Part shown: piece after piece, positions 4,232 to 21,379 of the stretch
Numbering within the stretch: position 1 is the stretch's first letter
Layout: the number at the start of each line of letters is the position of its first letter
From: a virus
Length of the DNA stretch: 22,839 nt
IMG/VR virus record: IMGVR_UViG_3300020476_000013
Span: 1 to 22,839 of that record
Reading direction: 5' to 3' (one strand)
Made by a program: the position numbers and the translations under genes
The notes under the pieces: model-generated
Database searches by the model: none
What the model saw: only the letters and a program-made list of their open reading frames with translations
What the model was told of the DNA's origin: nothing

Positions 4232-4720
4232 ATGACTATAGACGAAAAAATAAACGAAGCACTTGGTATCTCTAACGAGAAAATACTAACTAAAGCTGTA
4301 GTAAAAAAAGAATTTACTCCACCTGTACCTAGGTTGGAAGATAAAGAAAAAGAAGACGTTGATAACGATTACAAATATAGTAGAGAAAACTATTATAATC
4401 TTATTGAACGAGGACAAGACGCCATACAAGGTATATTAGATATTGCAAATGAAAGTCAACACCCTAGAGCATACGAGGTTGCAGGTAACTTAATCAAACA
4501 AGTTGCTGATACGGTTGACAAACTACAAGACTTACAAGGTAAACTTAAAACACTTAAAGACGTACCTAATAAAACAAGTACGAATATAAAACAAGCTTTA
4601 TTTGTTGGGTCTTCAGCAGAATTACATAAAATGTTAAAGAATAAAAATAAGAACGTAACTCCTGAGGAAGATAAAACATTCAAAGATGGCTTTAATCCTG
4701 AGGAGCACAAATATGATTAA
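4232..4720 (+). CDS. 16: Small terminase subunit gp16
   Basis: A 162-residue, highly charged and mostly helical protein, almost the same length as T4 gp16 (164). The central helical part (about residues 48-108, with YYNLIERGQDAIQGILDIA) has the two-helix coiled-coil look of the T4-type oligomerisation domain. The small terminase regulates DNA recognition and the ATPase of gp17 during headful packaging. Position after gp15 and upstream of gp17 supports the call. Unlike T4, where gp16 and gp17 adjoin, a foreign gene (4713-5468) is inserted between them and overlaps the gp16 end by 8 nt. Confidence 0.85.
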   Translation: MTIDEKINEALGISNEKILTKAVVKKEFTPPVPRLEDKEKEDVDNDYKYSRENYYNLIERGQDAIQGILDIANESQHPRAYEVAGNLIKQVADTVDKLQDLQGKLKTLKDVPNKTSTNIKQALFVGSSAELHKMLKNKNKNVTPEEDKTFKDGFNPEEHKYD

Positions 4721-5468
4721 TCACTTTGAGTTATTAGAATCAAAAAGAAAACACATAATAAATTACTCACAAGAAAAAATACCAGAAAAAAAAATAGTAG
4801 AAGACGCATTATATAAAGCGTGGAAAACTCAACCATCTAAAAATAATATGATGGCTTACTTTGTTGATGTATATGGTCCTGATAAACAAATATACAAAGA
4901 ATATATATGGAAATTATGTAATCAAAATCATATTAGAACAGATAAAGAATATAACTCAAAAAAATTTTCAAACGTAACAAGGGATGCAAAAAAGTATCCT
5001 AACCCTAATTATCAGCATATAAGATCATCTGCTTATCTATTTGTTTTTTCACAAAGATTAGTTGAGAAACCAAATCCTTTTTATCAACAAATGATAAAGA
5101 GAGGAGAACATGTTGCTGATGAAATGATACCAGAACAAATGCAAAGTTTAAGAGAACATGTAAGTATTGAAGTAGGAATATTTTGTGCTAACTTAACAAA
5201 TTATTTGTTATCTAGTGGTCTGGATATATCTTATAATTTATGTTTTTCTAAAGATTTAAATAGATGGCATGATTATGGTTTTTCACATATGCAATCTCCA
5301 CCAGTAGTTATGATGTCAACAGGTTATGCTGATATGACTAGAAAGCGATATTTACAAGGTTCTGAGCTTTATAGAAATTTAAAAATGAAAATAAAAAATA
5401 ATCCTGATACTAAACCAGATTTAGAGGAAATTATTGTTTGGAGAAATAACAATAAATTAGATAAATGA
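4713..5468 (+). CDS. Nitroreductase-like flavoprotein between terminase genes
   Basis: A 251-residue protein that I place in the nitroreductase-like (FMN-dependent oxidoreductase) fold. The N-terminal basic motif KRKHI (11-15), then PSKNN (41-45), corresponds to the RRSxR and aPSxxN phosphate/FMN-contact motifs of the family. Later, EVGIFCANLTNYLLSSGLD and PPVVMMSTGY match the 'NLxLxAxxxGL' helix and 'P..l..iGY' strand. It is clearly paralogous to the protein at 18619-19320: both carry ELLxSKRxHI, EKIPxK, LYKAWK, PSKNN, a GLD segment and a terminal VWR. I chose the ATG at 4713, preceded by AGGAG at 4701-4705; an in-frame ATG at 4686 lacks this. It overlaps gp16 by 8 nt and ends in an ATGA overlap with gp17, so it is built into the terminase operon. 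The substrate is unknown; family assignment rests on motifs only. Confidence 0.65.
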   Translation: MINHFELLESKRKHIINYSQEKIPEKKIVEDALYKAWKTQPSKNNMMAYFVDVYGPDKQIYKEYIWKLCNQNHIRTDKEYNSKKFSNVTRDAKKYPNPNYQHIRSSAYLFVFSQRLVEKPNPFYQQMIKRGEHVADEMIPEQMQSLREHVSIEVGIFCANLTNYLLSSGLDISYNLCFSKDLNRWHDYGFSHMQSPPVVMMSTGYADMTRKRYLQGSELYRNLKMKIKNNPDTKPDLEEIIVWRNNNKLDK

Positions 5469-9077: not shown

Positions 9078-9605
9078 ATGCCAAATATAAATGACTTTAA
9101 AGCTAAGTTAAGAGGCGGTGGGGCTCGTGCCAATCAGTTTAGAGTAACAATGCCTTTCCCTGGATTTGCAGCTGTAGGTGGGGAGACTGAAACAATGTCT
9201 TTCTTAACTACATCTACATCTTTACCAGGAATGACAGTTGCGGAAGTAGCTATTCCATTTAGAGGCAGGGAGTTATATGTTGCAGGTGATAGAACATTTG
9301 CTACATGGACTACAACTATTCTAAACGATACTAACTTCTTAATCAGAAACGCTTACGAAAGATGGTTAAATGGTATCAACAATATGTCAGATAACGAAGG
9401 ATTAGTAAATCCTGTAGATTATCAAGTTGACGGTTTTGTTGACCAATTAGACAGAAACGGTAACGTGATTAAATCATACACATTTAGAGGAATGTTTCCA
9501 ACAACTCTGGATGATATTGCTCTATCGTATAGTGATAACAACTCCGTAGAGAGTTTTACTGCTACACATAGATACCAATACTTTGAAACAAACACTACTA
9601 CTTAA
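9078..9605 (+). CDS. 19: Tail tube protein gp19
   Basis: A 175-residue protein (T4 gp19 is 163) with the expected order directly after the sheath gene. The N-terminal MPNINDFKAKLRGGGARANQF and the following TMPFPGF fit the gp19/T6SS Hcp-like tube family; the C-terminal SYTFRGMFPTTLDDIALSY is also typical. Subunits stack into hexameric rings to form the inner tail tube through which DNA passes. AGGAGG at 9064-9069, inside the end of gp18, sets the ATG. It probably shares the gp18 transcript. Confidence 0.9.
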   Translation: MPNINDFKAKLRGGGARANQFRVTMPFPGFAAVGGETETMSFLTTSTSLPGMTVAEVAIPFRGRELYVAGDRTFATWTTTILNDTNFLIRNAYERWLNGINNMSDNEGLVNPVDYQVDGFVDQLDRNGNVIKSYTFRGMFPTTLDDIALSYSDNNSVESFTATHRYQYFETNTTT

Positions 9606-16575: not shown

Positions 16576-16583
16576 TATAAATA
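16576..16583 (+). promoter_or_regulatory. T4-type late promoter box before the gp3-like gene
   Basis: A perfect TATAAATA ending five bases before the ATG at 16589. Under T4 geometry, +1 is the A of that ATG, predicting a leaderless mRNA. No Shine-Dalgarno precedes the ATG. Confidence 0.7.
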
Positions 16584-16588
16584 GCTGT

Positions 16589-17215
16589 ATGACAGTAACA
16601 AACTCATACACAAGACAACCAACTAAACTGGACTATGCGAGTCCTACACAGTTTAAGTTTACTATAATTAAGTTACCTAAAGTAGAATATTTTTGTACTA
16701 CGGCAAATGTACCTGGTGTTACAATGGGTTCTTCAGCACAAGCTACACCTTTTAAAGATGTACCTATCCCTGGTGATAAACTAGAATACGATACATTAAA
16801 CATACAGTTTTTAGTAGATGAAAATTTAGAAAACTATAGAGAGATACATGGTTGGATGACTGGTCTTGGATTTCCTAAAGACCATTCACAATTCAGATCA
16901 TTGCAGGCTGCAGGATCAGATAGATATCCTACAACAACAAGAGAAGACTTAAACAAAGAAATAGGTGATGTAGTAAAACAAACTTCAGATGATGGTGGTT
17001 TATATTCAGACGCTACACTATTCATCTTAACAAGTAAAAACAATTCAAATATAGAAGTACGTTTTAGAGATATTTACCCTATATCATTATCTGGTTTAGA
17101 TTACAATCAACAAGCAACAGATGTAAATTACTTAACAGCAAGTGTTACATTTCAATACAAAATTTATGAGTTTGCTAATGTTAGTGGGAGTGGCGTACTA
17201 GAAACAACTACTTAA
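16589..17215 (+). CDS. 3: Tail terminator / tail completion protein, gp3-like
   Basis: A 208-residue protein with a tail-tube-like fold pattern: SPTQFKFTIIKLPKVEYFCT near the N-terminus, then NVPGVTMG, a DVPIPGDKLEYDTLNIQFLV strand pair, ENLENYREIHGWMTGLGF and a C-terminal LTASVTFQYKIYEF. These features match the T4 gp3 family (176 residues), which ends tail tube growth and belongs to the gp19/Hcp-like fold. Marine T4-like phages often carry gp3 between gp23 and uvsY, which agrees. The start is the ATG immediately after a late promoter; a weaker possibility is another gp19-like tube protein. It precedes the accessory cassette by 19 nt. Confidence 0.65.
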   Translation: MTVTNSYTRQPTKLDYASPTQFKFTIIKLPKVEYFCTTANVPGVTMGSSAQATPFKDVPIPGDKLEYDTLNIQFLVDENLENYREIHGWMTGLGFPKDHSQFRSLQAAGSDRYPTTTREDLNKEIGDVVKQTSDDGGLYSDATLFILTSKNNSNIEVRFRDIYPISLSGLDYNQQATDVNYLTASVTFQYKIYEFANVSGSGVLETTT

Positions 17216-17221
17216 TTATAT

Positions 17222-17229
17222 TATAAATT
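17222..17229 (+). promoter_or_regulatory. Possible late promoter TATAAATT before the radical SAM cassette
   Basis: TATAAATT differs from TATAAATA in the last base. It ends five bases before the ATG at 17235, again predicting +1 at the start codon. The surroundings are almost pure A/T, so a chance match is quite possible. Confidence 0.4.
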
Positions 17230-17234
17230 ATATT

Positions 17235-18617
17235 ATGACTGTTCTTATAAAACCTAGAGATAGGAATCCTCATCACAATAAGTTAATGACTAAAGGTGGT
17301 CCTGGTGACAAGTACCTTGGTGATGGTACTGTTGACATGAGTCAATGGTTTAAAAAAGTTGATATACTAGAAGACCAAATCAGAAATAACGACATCTGGT
17401 TTTGTAGTGCTCCTTTCACAATGGTCTACACTACAACTAGAGGCGAATATGCACCATGCTCATGGGCTGCTGAAGGTTTCAATCCTAATATAAAAGACGT
17501 ACCTATTCGTAGATACTTTGAAGATAATAAAAATTTAAATGATTTACGTAAAGAAATGGTTACACCAGGTTCTAAATTAGAACTTGCAAAAAAATGGTGT
17601 AAACAATGTATGTTTCAGGAAAAAAACTATGGCAGATCAAGGCGACAAGCTTCTCTTAAAATACAAACAAACGATCACGCAATATGGCCTGGTATAAGAA
17701 ATGCAGTAGAGTATTTTAAAAGAAGAAACAAAGGTGTATTTCAGGACAGAATATTTGAGATACAAGTAAAGGCATTTGGTAACAAATGCAACCTTGATTG
17801 TTATATGTGTATACCTTACGACTCTACTACACGATTAAAATCTATACACTCGGAAGAAGTGAAAGGTGAAAAGGTTTTTTCTGATTATGCAAAGGCGCCT
17901 ATAGAATTAGTAAAAGGTGAGAAGTTAAAAAACGTTGTAGATCAGATAGTTGAATTAGCACCATACATTTATAATTTAAAATTTATAGGTGGCGAACCAT
18001 TAGTTATGAAAGACTTTTATATGTTGTTAGATAAGATATGTAAAACAGGTCATGCTGATAAAATGTTTGTAAAATATCAAACTAATATGTCAGTACTATC
18101 AATGGAAAAATTAAGATTATTAGATTACATTCCTAAGTTTATGCAATTTGAATTTACGGTATCTTTAGATGGTATAGGTAAGTCTGTAGAATATATAAGA
18201 CGTAGAACAAACTGGCAAGATGTAGTAAACAATATAAAAGAAGTTAAAAAGTTTCCTAACGTAACGGTTAATATAAACGGTGCAATATCTTTTTTAAGTG
18301 TATTAAGATTTTACGAATTGATAGAATGGATAGATAAAAATAAAACATTGTTCAAACAAATCAATTGGTCTAATATAAGAAATCCTAAAAAGTTATGTGC
18401 TAATGTTTTGCCTGACGAAATAAAAAAGAAACTTATACCAAAGTATAAAGGTTTTCCTGATATACAACAACTGCTAGAAGAAAGCAACGATGGCCTAGAT
18501 TATCAGGACACGTTAGACTATCTTTTAATGAACGATAAATATTACAAAGGTACTAAATGGGAAACACATTTGTTTGATGTTTTTCCTGAACTAGAACCAT
18601 ATCACAAAAAGGATTAA
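17235..18617 (+). CDS. Radical SAM protein with N-terminal twitch-like domain (1)
   Basis: A 460-residue radical SAM enzyme. The 4Fe-4S/SAM motif is CNLDCYMC (C185, C189, C192) and the SAM-contact GGEP is at 252-255. Upstream of it is a second cysteine set, C57 and C75, then WCKQC (C122, C125), within FCSAPFTMVYTTTRGEYAPC. This resembles a SPASM/twitch auxiliary-cluster domain, here placed N-terminal, as in the 'N-terminal twitch' radical SAM proteins known mainly from phages. Such enzymes often modify peptides, but the substrate here is unknown. It shares MTKGGPGDK (18-26) and strong overall similarity with the protein at 19883-21379. A start at M18 cannot be excluded. No Shine-Dalgarno precedes 17235. 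The next gene starts one base after its stop. Confidence 0.85.
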   Translation: MTVLIKPRDRNPHHNKLMTKGGPGDKYLGDGTVDMSQWFKKVDILEDQIRNNDIWFCSAPFTMVYTTTRGEYAPCSWAAEGFNPNIKDVPIRRYFEDNKNLNDLRKEMVTPGSKLELAKKWCKQCMFQEKNYGRSRRQASLKIQTNDHAIWPGIRNAVEYFKRRNKGVFQDRIFEIQVKAFGNKCNLDCYMCIPYDSTTRLKSIHSEEVKGEKVFSDYAKAPIELVKGEKLKNVVDQIVELAPYIYNLKFIGGEPLVMKDFYMLLDKICKTGHADKMFVKYQTNMSVLSMEKLRLLDYIPKFMQFEFTVSLDGIGKSVEYIRRRTNWQDVVNNIKEVKKFPNVTVNINGAISFLSVLRFYELIEWIDKNKTLFKQINWSNIRNPKKLCANVLPDEIKKKLIPKYKGFPDIQQLLEESNDGLDYQDTLDYLLMNDKYYKGTKWETHLFDVFPELEPYHKKD

Positions 18618-18618
18618 T

Positions 18619-19320
18619 ATGGACGCATATGAACTTTTAAGTAAAAGAAGACACATACATAAATTTGACGCAGAAAAAATACCACCTAAAGAGCAGATAG
18701 ATGACTTGTTGTATAAAGCATGGAAAGTAACACCATCAAAAAATAATTTTATGCCATATCATGTTAACGTGTTAGGACCTGAGCATGTAAGTGAAAAGGA
18801 ATCTATCACTAAAAAATGTATGCTTAATAAGAAAAGAATAAATGAAGATAAGATACCTAAACACTATTCAGAAAAACATAAAACGTGGGAAGAAGATGGT
18901 ACTAATCCAGCGTTTGTACACATTAGAACAGCGCCATATGTGTTAGTGTTTACACAAAGAATATGTAAACCTAATAAATTTTACCAAGAGTGTATTGATA
19001 GAGGTGATTTCTTTGAACAAATGCACGAAGAATATCTAGCAGAATTACAAAGAACAACGTGTACTGAAATAGGTTGGTTTACATCAAACCTTACTAACCT
19101 TTGCTTAGAACAAGGACTTGATACAGCAACTTTATTATGTTTTCCTTATTATGAAAAAACATGGAATAGAGATTGGGAAGATATACCTTGGGTAAAATAT
19201 CCTGTTCTTTTACTATGCAGTATAGGTTATAGTAAACAAAGCAGACGTGAGTTTATGCACCCAGCAAATAGAGCAAGAGATAAAAAACCTGAAAAAGAAA
19301 CAGTTGTGGTATGGCGATAA
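18619..19320 (+). CDS. Nitroreductase-like flavoprotein (2)
   Basis: A 233-residue paralogue of the protein at 4713-5468. Shared landmarks in order: KRRHI (9-13), EKIPPK, LYKAWK, PSKNN (39-43), a HIRTAPYVLVFTQR strand, TEIGWFTSNLTNLCLEQGLD, a VLLLCSIGY strand and a terminal VVVWR. The KRRHI and PSKNN motifs correspond to FMN-contact sites of the nitroreductase superfamily and IGY to its late strand, so an FMN-dependent oxidoreductase is the likely role. It follows the first radical SAM gene after one base (AAAGGA before the ATG) and overlaps the next gene by 10 nt. Placement between two radical SAM genes suggests it acts in the same pathway, perhaps as a redox step on the same substrate; this is inference. 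Confidence 0.68.
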   Translation: MDAYELLSKRRHIHKFDAEKIPPKEQIDDLLYKAWKVTPSKNNFMPYHVNVLGPEHVSEKESITKKCMLNKKRINEDKIPKHYSEKHKTWEEDGTNPAFVHIRTAPYVLVFTQRICKPNKFYQECIDRGDFFEQMHEEYLAELQRTTCTEIGWFTSNLTNLCLEQGLDTATLLCFPYYEKTWNRDWEDIPWVKYPVLLLCSIGYSKQSRREFMHPANRARDKKPEKETVVVWR

Positions 19321-19886
19321 TACAAAACAAAACACTATTGTTATTAATTGATTTTCATGGTCATCCCATATTAGGTGACGATCACACAAATAATTTAAGA
19401 TATTCTGAATTAATGGATTTTTTAAATAACGATAAAGAGCTTAATATAGTATCAAACCATTTGTTAGGCGAGTATCCTACACAGCGTGGCCCTAATAAAC
19501 TAAAGGAAATAAAACGCATATATGATAATGAAGGTGTACATAATTGGGACAGAATTGATCCTGATAGAGAACCACCACCAAGTATAGTAGAAATAGAGAA
19601 TATATTTAAAAACAGAAACTATAGAATAAACAATGTAATTCTAGGTGGTACAAATTTAGCAGGTTGTGTTTTAAGATCAAAACCATATTCAGCAATACAT
19701 TGGGCAAAAAGAGGATATCATACGCAAATTTATTTACCATTGTGTGCTGATTATCAGTTACCAGGTATAAATCAGGTTGAAAGAAATTTACATGCCACTT
19801 CAATATTATACAACGTTATACGAGAAGAAAGATTGTGGGATTATATTGATATTGTAAGAATGAAAAACAGGTTGATAATACAATGA
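19311..19886 (+). CDS. Isochorismatase/nicotinamidase-like cysteine hydrolase
   Basis: A 191-residue protein with the outline of the isochorismatase-like hydrolase superfamily. An N-terminal strand LLLLIDFHGH places an Asp at 14, the usual 'lLviDmQ' acid. A later VILGGTNLAGCV (109-120) followed by AIHWAKRGYHTQIYLPLCAD matches the 'v.v.G..t..CV..Ta.dA...Gy.v.v..Da' motif, with nucleophile Cys at 119. The third residue of the classical Asp-Lys-Cys triad is not obvious, and the middle region (residues 25-100) is unusual. Substrate could be a nicotinamide-like or other small amide, but it is not readable. It overlaps the preceding nitroreductase-like gene by 10 nt and the following radical SAM gene by ATGA, so expression is coupled. 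Confidence 0.55.
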   Translation: MAIIQNKTLLLLIDFHGHPILGDDHTNNLRYSELMDFLNNDKELNIVSNHLLGEYPTQRGPNKLKEIKRIYDNEGVHNWDRIDPDREPPPSIVEIENIFKNRNYRINNVILGGTNLAGCVLRSKPYSAIHWAKRGYHTQIYLPLCADYQLPGINQVERNLHATSILYNVIREERLWDYIDIVRMKNRLIIQ

Positions 19887-21379
19887 AGTGTAAAGAAAGA
19901 GAATTAGATTTAGAATTACCTGATTACATGACAAAAGGTGGGCCTGGTGATAAGTCAGCGCCTGGTAAAATTGATACATCTTCGTGGTTTAAGGATCAGT
20001 TAGACCGAGATAGTTGGGCGTATAATCCTTTTGTTGTTGATAAAGGTACAATAGGTCAGCAAGCAAAAGACCAAGAAATATTTTTTTGTGATATACCTTT
20101 CAATCAAGTTTATTTAGAGATAAGTGGTAACTATGCAGCCTGCTGTTTTGGGGCAGAGGCAGATGGTGAAGATGGTTTGCCAAATCATAATGTAAACAAT
20201 ACAACACTACAAGAATGGATGCGTGATAGCACGTATATGAATAATATACGTAAGGAAATGCTTGATCCTAATTCAGATTTAAAGACCGTAAAAAAAACTT
20301 GTAAGAGATGTATAGCAGATGAAAAGCGTTATGGCAGATCCCGAAGAACAGCATGTATGAAAATTCATACACAAGAAAAAGATTACTGGCAAGCAATAGA
20401 ACGATCAGTATTGATGTTCAAAGCAACAGGTCAATATGAGTTTGAGGAAAGAATATTAGAAGTACAATTAAAAGTATATGGTGATGAGTGTAATTTAGAT
20501 TGTCATATGTGTGTACATCAAAATTCAACAACCCGTCAACAAGTTGCAAAAAAAGGTGTATGGAGTGAAGAAATATTTGGTAATACTAATTATGGTAAAG
20601 GCGAATACAAAACATTTAATAGCAAAAATGTTGAAGATATGATACAGCAAACCGTAGAGTTAGCACCTTTCATACGTAGTATTAAAATTATAGGTGGCGA
20701 ACCATTAATTATGAAAAAACACTATGAACTATTACAGAAATTAATAGACATAGATGAAGCAAAAAATATTATGATAAAGTATCAAACAAACTTTACAGAA
20801 ACAAAAGCAGGCAAACATAATATCTTTAATTACATACCACATTTTAAGCTTGTGTCTATGGTTGCGTCTGTAGATGGCATAGGTCCTGTTATAGAATATA
20901 TGAGAAGAAGAACAGATTGGAATAAAGTTATACAGAATACTGAAATATGTAGAAAGTATGATAATGTCGTTGTTGATTTTAATGGTTTAGTTTCGTTTTT
21001 AAGTGTTATGAGATTTTACGAAGTAATAGATTATTGTTTAGATAGGCCTAAACTAATAGATCAAATCAATTGGGCAATGGTAGAAAACCCAAAACATTTA
21101 AGAGTAAATAATTTGCCAGAAAAATTAAAACAAAGTTTGATTCCTAAATATGAAAAGTGGCCTGACATACAAGCTGCATTAAGGAAACCAGCTGATGAAG
21201 ATGTTAATATACAAGATACATTTCAATATCTTTTAAAACAAGATAAATTCTATGAAGGAACAAAATGGGAATCACATTTGTTTAAGGTGTTTCCTGAGCT
21301 AGAAGAATACTATGACCCTATGTACAATCACAATGCTAATTTGAAACTAAATATAAAAAACAATGAGGATATATTATGA
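19883..21379 (+). CDS. Radical SAM protein with N-terminal twitch-like domain (2)
   Basis: A 498-residue paralogue of the radical SAM protein at 17235-18617. The cluster motif is CNLDCHMC (C203, C207, C210) and GGEP lies at 271-274. N-terminal auxiliary-cluster cysteines are C69, C87, C88 and KKTCKRC (C140, C143), inside FFCDIPFNQVYLEISGNYAA, much like a SPASM/twitch domain. Shared landmarks with its paralogue are MTKGGPGDK (16-24), YGRSRR, FIGGEPL or IIGGEPL, MRRRTDW and RRRTNW, INW and TKWESHLFKVFPELE near the end. A C-terminal extension of about 20 residues (DPMYNHNANLKLNIKN) is unique to it. The start overlaps the previous stop (ATGA) and its stop overlaps the uvsY start (ATGA), coupling it to recombination genes. 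Substrate unknown. Confidence 0.85.
   Translation: MKCKERELDLELPDYMTKGGPGDKSAPGKIDTSSWFKDQLDRDSWAYNPFVVDKGTIGQQAKDQEIFFCDIPFNQVYLEISGNYAACCFGAEADGEDGLPNHNVNNTTLQEWMRDSTYMNNIRKEMLDPNSDLKTVKKTCKRCIADEKRYGRSRRTACMKIHTQEKDYWQAIERSVLMFKATGQYEFEERILEVQLKVYGDECNLDCHMCVHQNSTTRQQVAKKGVWSEEIFGNTNYGKGEYKTFNSKNVEDMIQQTVELAPFIRSIKIIGGEPLIMKKHYELLQKLIDIDEAKNIMIKYQTNFTETKAGKHNIFNYIPHFKLVSMVASVDGIGPVIEYMRRRTDWNKVIQNTEICRKYDNVVVDFNGLVSFLSVMRFYEVIDYCLDRPKLIDQINWAMVENPKHLRVNNLPEKLKQSLIPKYEKWPDIQAALRKPADEDVNIQDTFQYLLKQDKFYEGTKWESHLFKVFPELEEYYDPMYNHNANLKLNIKNNEDIL

Follow-up and report, generated by a model that had tools for sequence, protein, structure and literature searches.

What do two radical S-adenosylmethionine (SAM) enzymes, a flavoprotein, and a putative hydrolase do as neighbors in the late region of a marine phage? 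The question is raised by a 22,839-nt stretch of viral DNA (IMG/VR record IMGVR_UViG_3300020476_000013, positions 1 to 22,839; its whole length is called the window here), in which four plus-strand genes—rSAM-A (17235..18617, 460 aa; also rSAM1), NTR1 (18619..19320, 233 aa), HYD (19311..19886, 191 aa), and rSAM-B (19883..21379, 498 aa; also rSAM2)—follow one another with a 1-nt gap, a 10-nt overlap, and a 4-nt overlap, and are joined to uvsY (starting at 21376) by an ATGA junction. The open reading frame coordinates agree with the tight coupling described in an initial annotation made from the sequence alone. We read this quartet, tentatively, as the late-expressed core of a phage pathway that tailors a small, probably sugar-type molecule; taken whole, that statement falls a little short of probable, while our confidence that the four genes form a functional unit is much higher.

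Recurrence of the quartet in related phages

Relatives were collected by scanning viral contigs. Among 47 distinct HYD loci with an identified upstream gene other than HYD, an NTR gene lies directly 5' of HYD in 41, and in 31 of these (counted as distinct HYD sequences) rSAM, NTR, and HYD are consecutive, usually with a second radical SAM gene (rSAM-B) following. Lack of co-occurrence in related phages had been set beforehand as grounds for refuting a unit; co-occurrence is what we find, in 31 loci. The order rSAM-A, NTR, HYD is common to two settings—first, the slot between gp23/tail tube and uvsY, and second, sugar-type gene islands—and in a third setting, 3' of an nrdB-like gene, NTR and HYD stand without adjoining radical SAM genes. 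One long contig with the pair in this nrdB-type setting (G010, 165.7 kb) has its genes scattered and contains all four types, with two radical SAM genes of the NF033640 type, three NTR, and three HYD; one of the former occupies the tail-tube-to-uvsY slot. In another (G001, 170.8 kb), the cassette is intact and is accompanied by one extra HYD.

All four cassette genes are under purifying selection: the ratio of nonsynonymous to synonymous substitution rates (dN/dS) is below 0.5 for each of them in eight comparisons (0.01–0.48 overall), with NTR and HYD mostly looser (0.05–0.48) than rSAM-A (0.04–0.12). Because the genes are intact, dN/dS is low throughout, and identical contigs were recovered from other metagenomes (L005, L006), the quartet is not a chance arrangement. 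Synonymous divergence also ties the two smaller genes to each other. Against one relative (L007), dS is 0.07 for NTR and 0.02 for HYD, compared with 0.30–0.54 for flanking genes, whereas against another (L024) the signal is opposite, with 0.70 and 0.76 compared with 0.19–0.39; we therefore conclude that NTR and HYD were swapped jointly, as a single block, in keeping with proteins that work together.

The four proteins

Both radical SAM proteins belong to NF033640 (N_Twi_rSAM): rSAM-A scores 287.1 bits and rSAM-B 291.8 against a curated cut-off of 170, spanning positions 3–397 and 3–398 of the 398-position model, which bears out their first description as twitch-type enzymes. In addition, rSAM-A matches PF04055 (51 bits), and rSAM-B has a sub-threshold match to the SPASM model PF13186 at residues 69–143. 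The CxxxCxxC cysteines (C185/C189/C192; CNLDCYMC in rSAM-A), the GGEP motif, and the extra, twitch/SPASM-like N-terminal cysteine set (C57/C75/C122/C125), all of which had been picked out in both proteins at the start, proved invariant across 26 aligned relatives, and as family members the two are predicted to bind SAM and two 4Fe-4S clusters. They share with NF033640 an auxiliary-cluster domain that is N-terminal, not C-terminal; they differ from it in being split between two fixed clades whose members occur together, and in bearing an invariant GGPGD tail that the model does not cover. The two are 42% identical and fall in separate, well-supported clades of the radical SAM tree. To our knowledge, no function has been assigned to the family.

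An AlphaFold (AF2) model of rSAM-A, with a predicted local distance difference test score (pLDDT) of 80, has low confidence at residues 1–31 (the GGPGD tail) and 134–143 (the GRSRR region). Its Foldseek matches—CteB at the top, along with viperin, SkfB, EpeE, BlsE, and MoaA—are superfamily-level (TMq ~0.3), and these model-based matches are spread over enzymes that act on sugars, peptides, and nucleotides, giving no clear pointer to the substrate. The radical SAM profile matched nothing among PDB sequences at E 1e-3, and membership of the viperin or MoaA families was rejected, the model scores being far under the cut-offs. The GGPGD tail, invariant at the N-termini of both proteins and probably disordered in the rSAM-A model, is also borne C-terminally by a PP-loop protein (L060, 9224–10063) that is probably a truncated fusion. 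The idea that GGPGD might mark other proteins as substrates was considered and set aside, as the motif occurs only in radical SAM proteins and this one PP-loop protein.

NTR1 matches PF00881 at 36.7 bits (gathering cut-off 23.5), and its RRH and PSKNN motifs are present and conserved, so that its initial assignment as nitroreductase-like holds. Its profile matches in the PDB are NAD(P)H-flavin oxidoreductase and iodotyrosine deiodinase, and the protein is predicted to be a reductase that binds flavin mononucleotide (FMN) and depends on NAD(P)H. The window contains a paralogue that the initial annotation lacks: NTR2 (4686..5468, plus strand, 260 aa), between gp16 and gp17, overlaps gp16, is ATGA-coupled to gp17, and has the same slot in five relatives (L134–L138). 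It is 39% identical to NTR1 and is not itself matched by any Pfam model. A divergent nitroreductase-like gene is also found between nrdA-like and nrdB-like genes in three contigs (L048:6143-6871, L050:4932-5642, L106:5824-6543), with PSKNN lost in the copy that was aligned (L048).

HYD is not placed by any Pfam, NCBIfam, or PHROG model, and its assignment as a hydrolase rests on fold for that reason. The AF2 model (pLDDT 88; predicted template modelling score, pTM, 0.86) has nicotinamidase 6kua as its best Foldseek match (E 1.6e-4, probability 1.00, TMq 0.55), followed by 3v8e and 2a67, and Cys119 aligns with the nucleophilic cysteine of PncA. With NTR1 placed by PF00881 and HYD by AlphaFold and Foldseek, both smaller proteins fall in the folds first proposed for them. 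In an alignment of 27 sequences, Cys119, in the GCV motif initially proposed to hold the nucleophile, and Trp79 are invariant (27/27), and Asp14 is found in 24, with His in the other three. Where the Lys of an Asp-Lys-Cys triad would be expected, on a strand deduced from topology and secondary-structure order without superposition, these 27 sequences have no conserved Lys, and Trp79 is invariant there. The isochorismatase-like assignment is accordingly upheld for fold and cysteine, and not for a profile match or the triad Lys.

HYD shares with isochorismatase-like hydrolases (PncA, RutB, N-carbamoylsarcosine amidohydrolase) the fold, the nucleophile cysteine, and a GCV-type motif; it departs from them in the presumed triad position, in an insertion after the cysteine, in having no Pfam-level similarity, and in having no cellular relatives found. 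Profile scans of 84,980 cellular species, made via short conserved peptide patterns that distant relatives could escape, returned no relatives of HYD or NTR, and the HYD family relatives turned up in viral contigs only. Second copies adjoining HYD in three contigs (L013:2452-3078, L016:1993-2628, L021:2159-2830) have His for Asp14 and are possibly diverged or non-catalytic partners.

A link to sugar-type islands and the readings it favors

The case for small-molecule chemistry is built on fusions and neighbors in relatives. One contig (L123) encodes a fusion of rSAM-A with a NodU-type carbamoyltransferase, an architecture of 968 aa shared by three others (L130–L132). In two more (L062/L063), a PP-loop domain forms one protein with rSAM-B; this domain has no Pfam match itself, and free proteins resembling it match QueC weakly. 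In L061 and L126, members of a third radical SAM clade carry a fused domain of unknown type. In the five long contigs with the set that were checked, a single carbamoyltransferase and a single DegT aminotransferase occur per contig. The island of G001 further includes radical SAM and SPASM-like proteins, a methyltransferase-like protein, a GT8 glycosyltransferase, and a protein whose likeness to GDSL enzymes was judged by eye; an epimerase and fibre-like genes adjoin it. Vibrio phage K566 (L004, 161581–178879) has five NF033640-type matches, two of them above cut-off and several near GT8/GT4 genes. A split pair of a radical SAM protein (218 aa) and a SPASM-like protein (96 aa) adjoins a thyX-like gene in the 170.8-kb contig (L162:6878-7811).

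Although quartet genes are linked or fused to island genes in relatives, NTR2 is the one island-type gene within the window. It groups with a nitroreductase that adjoins the carbamoyltransferase in G010 (L155 = G010:68621; tree support 100/99), and part of the island toolkit is therefore present in the window too. That the window's own phage carries such an island we infer from relatives with about 71% identity in rSAM-A.

In the pathway we propose, rSAM-A and rSAM-B would act by radical chemistry upon a small, sugar-like substrate, the NTR flavoprotein would supply a paired redox step, and HYD, through its cysteine nucleophile, a C–N or acyl-type step. The rest would be encoded in the tail-fibre/host-recognition island: a NodU-type carbamoyltransferase, a DegT aminotransferase, another radical SAM protein, the split radical SAM/SPASM pair, a GDSL-like protein, and glycosyltransferases. 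The product would most likely decorate a glycan, either the host O-chain, blocking co-infection, or the tail fibre. That the enzymes share one substrate, that it is a sugar, which reaction each performs, and where the product goes are all inferred.

Several points weigh against this proposal. Peptide maturases (CteB at the top, SkfB, EpeE) are among the fold matches of rSAM-A. A cultured relative, Pelagibacter phage Mosig (EXVC030M), has a similarly laid out island (Mosig_00082–00090) with a carbamoyltransferase (79% identical), a DegT-type aminotransferase, a distant nitroreductase, a glycosyltransferase-like protein, radical SAM proteins, and a methyltransferase; it differs in having neither HYD nor an NF033640 radical SAM protein, which shows that such an island can exist without the quartet. 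The DegT proteins score far under the PseC/LegC equivalog cut-offs, and the NTR-HYD pairs of the nrd slot have no adjoining radical SAM genes. The window is too short, at 22.8 kb, to show the island of its own genome, and the check for island genes covers five long contigs, with no control set of quartet-free phages. Substrate and reaction remain predictions. A more far-reaching claim is more doubtful—that this is a phage-confined pathway with no cellular counterpart, in which an N-terminal-twitch radical SAM pair, a flavoprotein, and an isochorismatase-fold enzyme lacking the Lys yield a new compound, be it a modified sugar or a small molecule, that serves late infection of abundant ocean bacteria.

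The initial annotation had leaned toward peptide modification, and many SPASM/twitch enzymes do have peptide substrates. On such a reading, to which the CteB, SkfB, and EpeE matches lend some weight, the radical SAM proteins, NTR, and HYD would act on a virion or host protein encoded elsewhere, in a sactipeptide- or epimerase-like manner. As the same annotation had recognized, the overlaps and the 1-nt gap leave no space for a precursor-peptide gene between the four genes, and family-model searches of the four proteins found no RRE or leader-recognition domain and no protease family. The quartet thus has neither the nearby precursor nor the RRE by which radical SAM maturase systems for ribosomally synthesized and post-translationally modified peptides are recognized. 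The fusion partners and neighbors (NodU, PP-loop, DegT, GT8/GT4, epimerase) suggest small-molecule or sugar chemistry instead, and we regard modification of a peptide or protein as unlikely.

Somewhat less likely again is a nucleotide-level function, in which the enzymes would generate modified nucleotides or DNA bases, or remove a host defence nucleotide late in infection (viperin-like or counter-viperin). Viperin, MoaA, and BlsE among the fold matches, the nicotinamidase fold of HYD, and the nrdA/nrdB-like neighbors of NTR-HYD in some phages speak for it; the matches are of superfamily level, however, with viperin and MoaA scores well below their thresholds, and the island regions read show no recognizable nucleotide-modifying genes.

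The four could also be unconnected accessory genes in permissive slots (uvsY, nrdAB, gp16/17) with no shared pathway, as single NTR homologues in several slots and a variable cassette content—rSAM-B missing in L029/L030, HYD duplicated in other loci—might suggest. We consider this improbable in the face of a gene order that is constant across divergent contigs and settings, the exchange of NTR and HYD as a pair, the gene fusions, and the presence of both rSAM-A and rSAM-B in two long (>165 kb) contigs. Cofactor salvage, in which HYD would be a nicotinamidase and NTR would supply flavin/NAD(P)H reductase activity to phage reductases such as NrdAB, draws on the best HYD fold match and the nrdA/nrdB neighborhood of one phage group, and is very improbable given a presumed triad position with no conserved Lys, two conserved radical SAM proteins left unexplained, and most loci having no nrd genes nearby.

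Phage setting, expression, and significance

The gene content of the window, in which terminase, tail, portal, and capsid genes are followed by uvsY and uvsW, is that of the late region of a T4-like marine phage. The major capsid protein shares 80% identity with its Mosig counterpart, and a SAR11-type bacterium is for this reason the likely host. Ahead of the cassette, 3' of gp23, lies a second tail-tube-like gene (16589–17215, phrog_45; the other is at 9078), which is kept in this position in relatives. A terminator-like GC hairpin with a T run (AAGGGCGCTTCGGCGCCCTTTTTTTT) follows gp23 just upstream of 16270 and is likewise kept.

An exact octamer, TATAAATA, has five matches in the window, all on the plus strand and ahead of late genes. 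Since one-mismatch matches are not enriched (62 observed vs 81 expected), our promoter argument uses the five exact matches and conservation only. One of the five (16576..16583, plus strand) lies 13 nt 5' of the tail-tube gene preceding the cassette, and TATAAATT (17222..17229, plus strand) lies 13 nt 5' of the rSAM-A start codon; both are kept in most relatives. A spacing of 13 nt leaves little space for a leader or Shine-Dalgarno site. Host-type promoters within the cassette do not rise above shuffled background. Late expression is plausible because the conserved, late-promoter-like TATAAATA and TATAAATT precede the tail-tube gene and rSAM-A, and together with the recurrence of the genes, they support the multi-enzyme, probably late pathway co-occurring as a unit that had first been proposed.

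Among known systems, the E. coli rut operon also pairs an isochorismatase-like amidohydrolase, RutB, with a small reductase, RutE, which is of the nitroreductase family. It has no radical SAM enzymes, and a rut-type pathway was rejected for the quartet: profile comparisons are weak, and the analogy is one of parts only. For the radical SAM genes of pelagimyophage sugar-type islands, we know of no assigned chemistry. Pelagimyophage host-recognition clusters are described as glycosyltransferase-rich, with GT8 the commonest family, and as varying by radical SAM cassettes, and O-chain modification is argued for such GT8-rich, radical-SAM-bearing islands (PMC7029224); T4-like environmental viral genomes are likewise described as rich in radical SAM genes (PMC5332604). 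These systems belong to the same phage group, and the sugar/tail-fibre island is where their radical SAM cassettes lie. The portions of both papers available to us treat radical SAM genes generally, and do not describe the quartet, the uvsY slot, the NTR-HYD pairing, or the radical SAM fusions (PMC7029224, PMC5332604). Nor did the literature searched yield a published account of the quartet, of the partner genes it has in other parts of the genome, or of the phage-only hydrolase family. Radical SAM cassettes in pelagimyophages have thus already been reported, and the quartet as a unit appears to be new.

Pelagimyophages are regarded as abundant in the ocean. For this group, the quartet offers a testable minimal unit, which gene fusions tie to carbamoylation and PP-loop chemistry, and HYD adds a protein family with relatives found only in viral contigs. 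Should the pathway yield a new glycan, it would have a direct bearing on the control of adsorption and co-infection by these phages; if the enzymes act on peptides or nucleotides instead, they would represent new phage chemistry either way.

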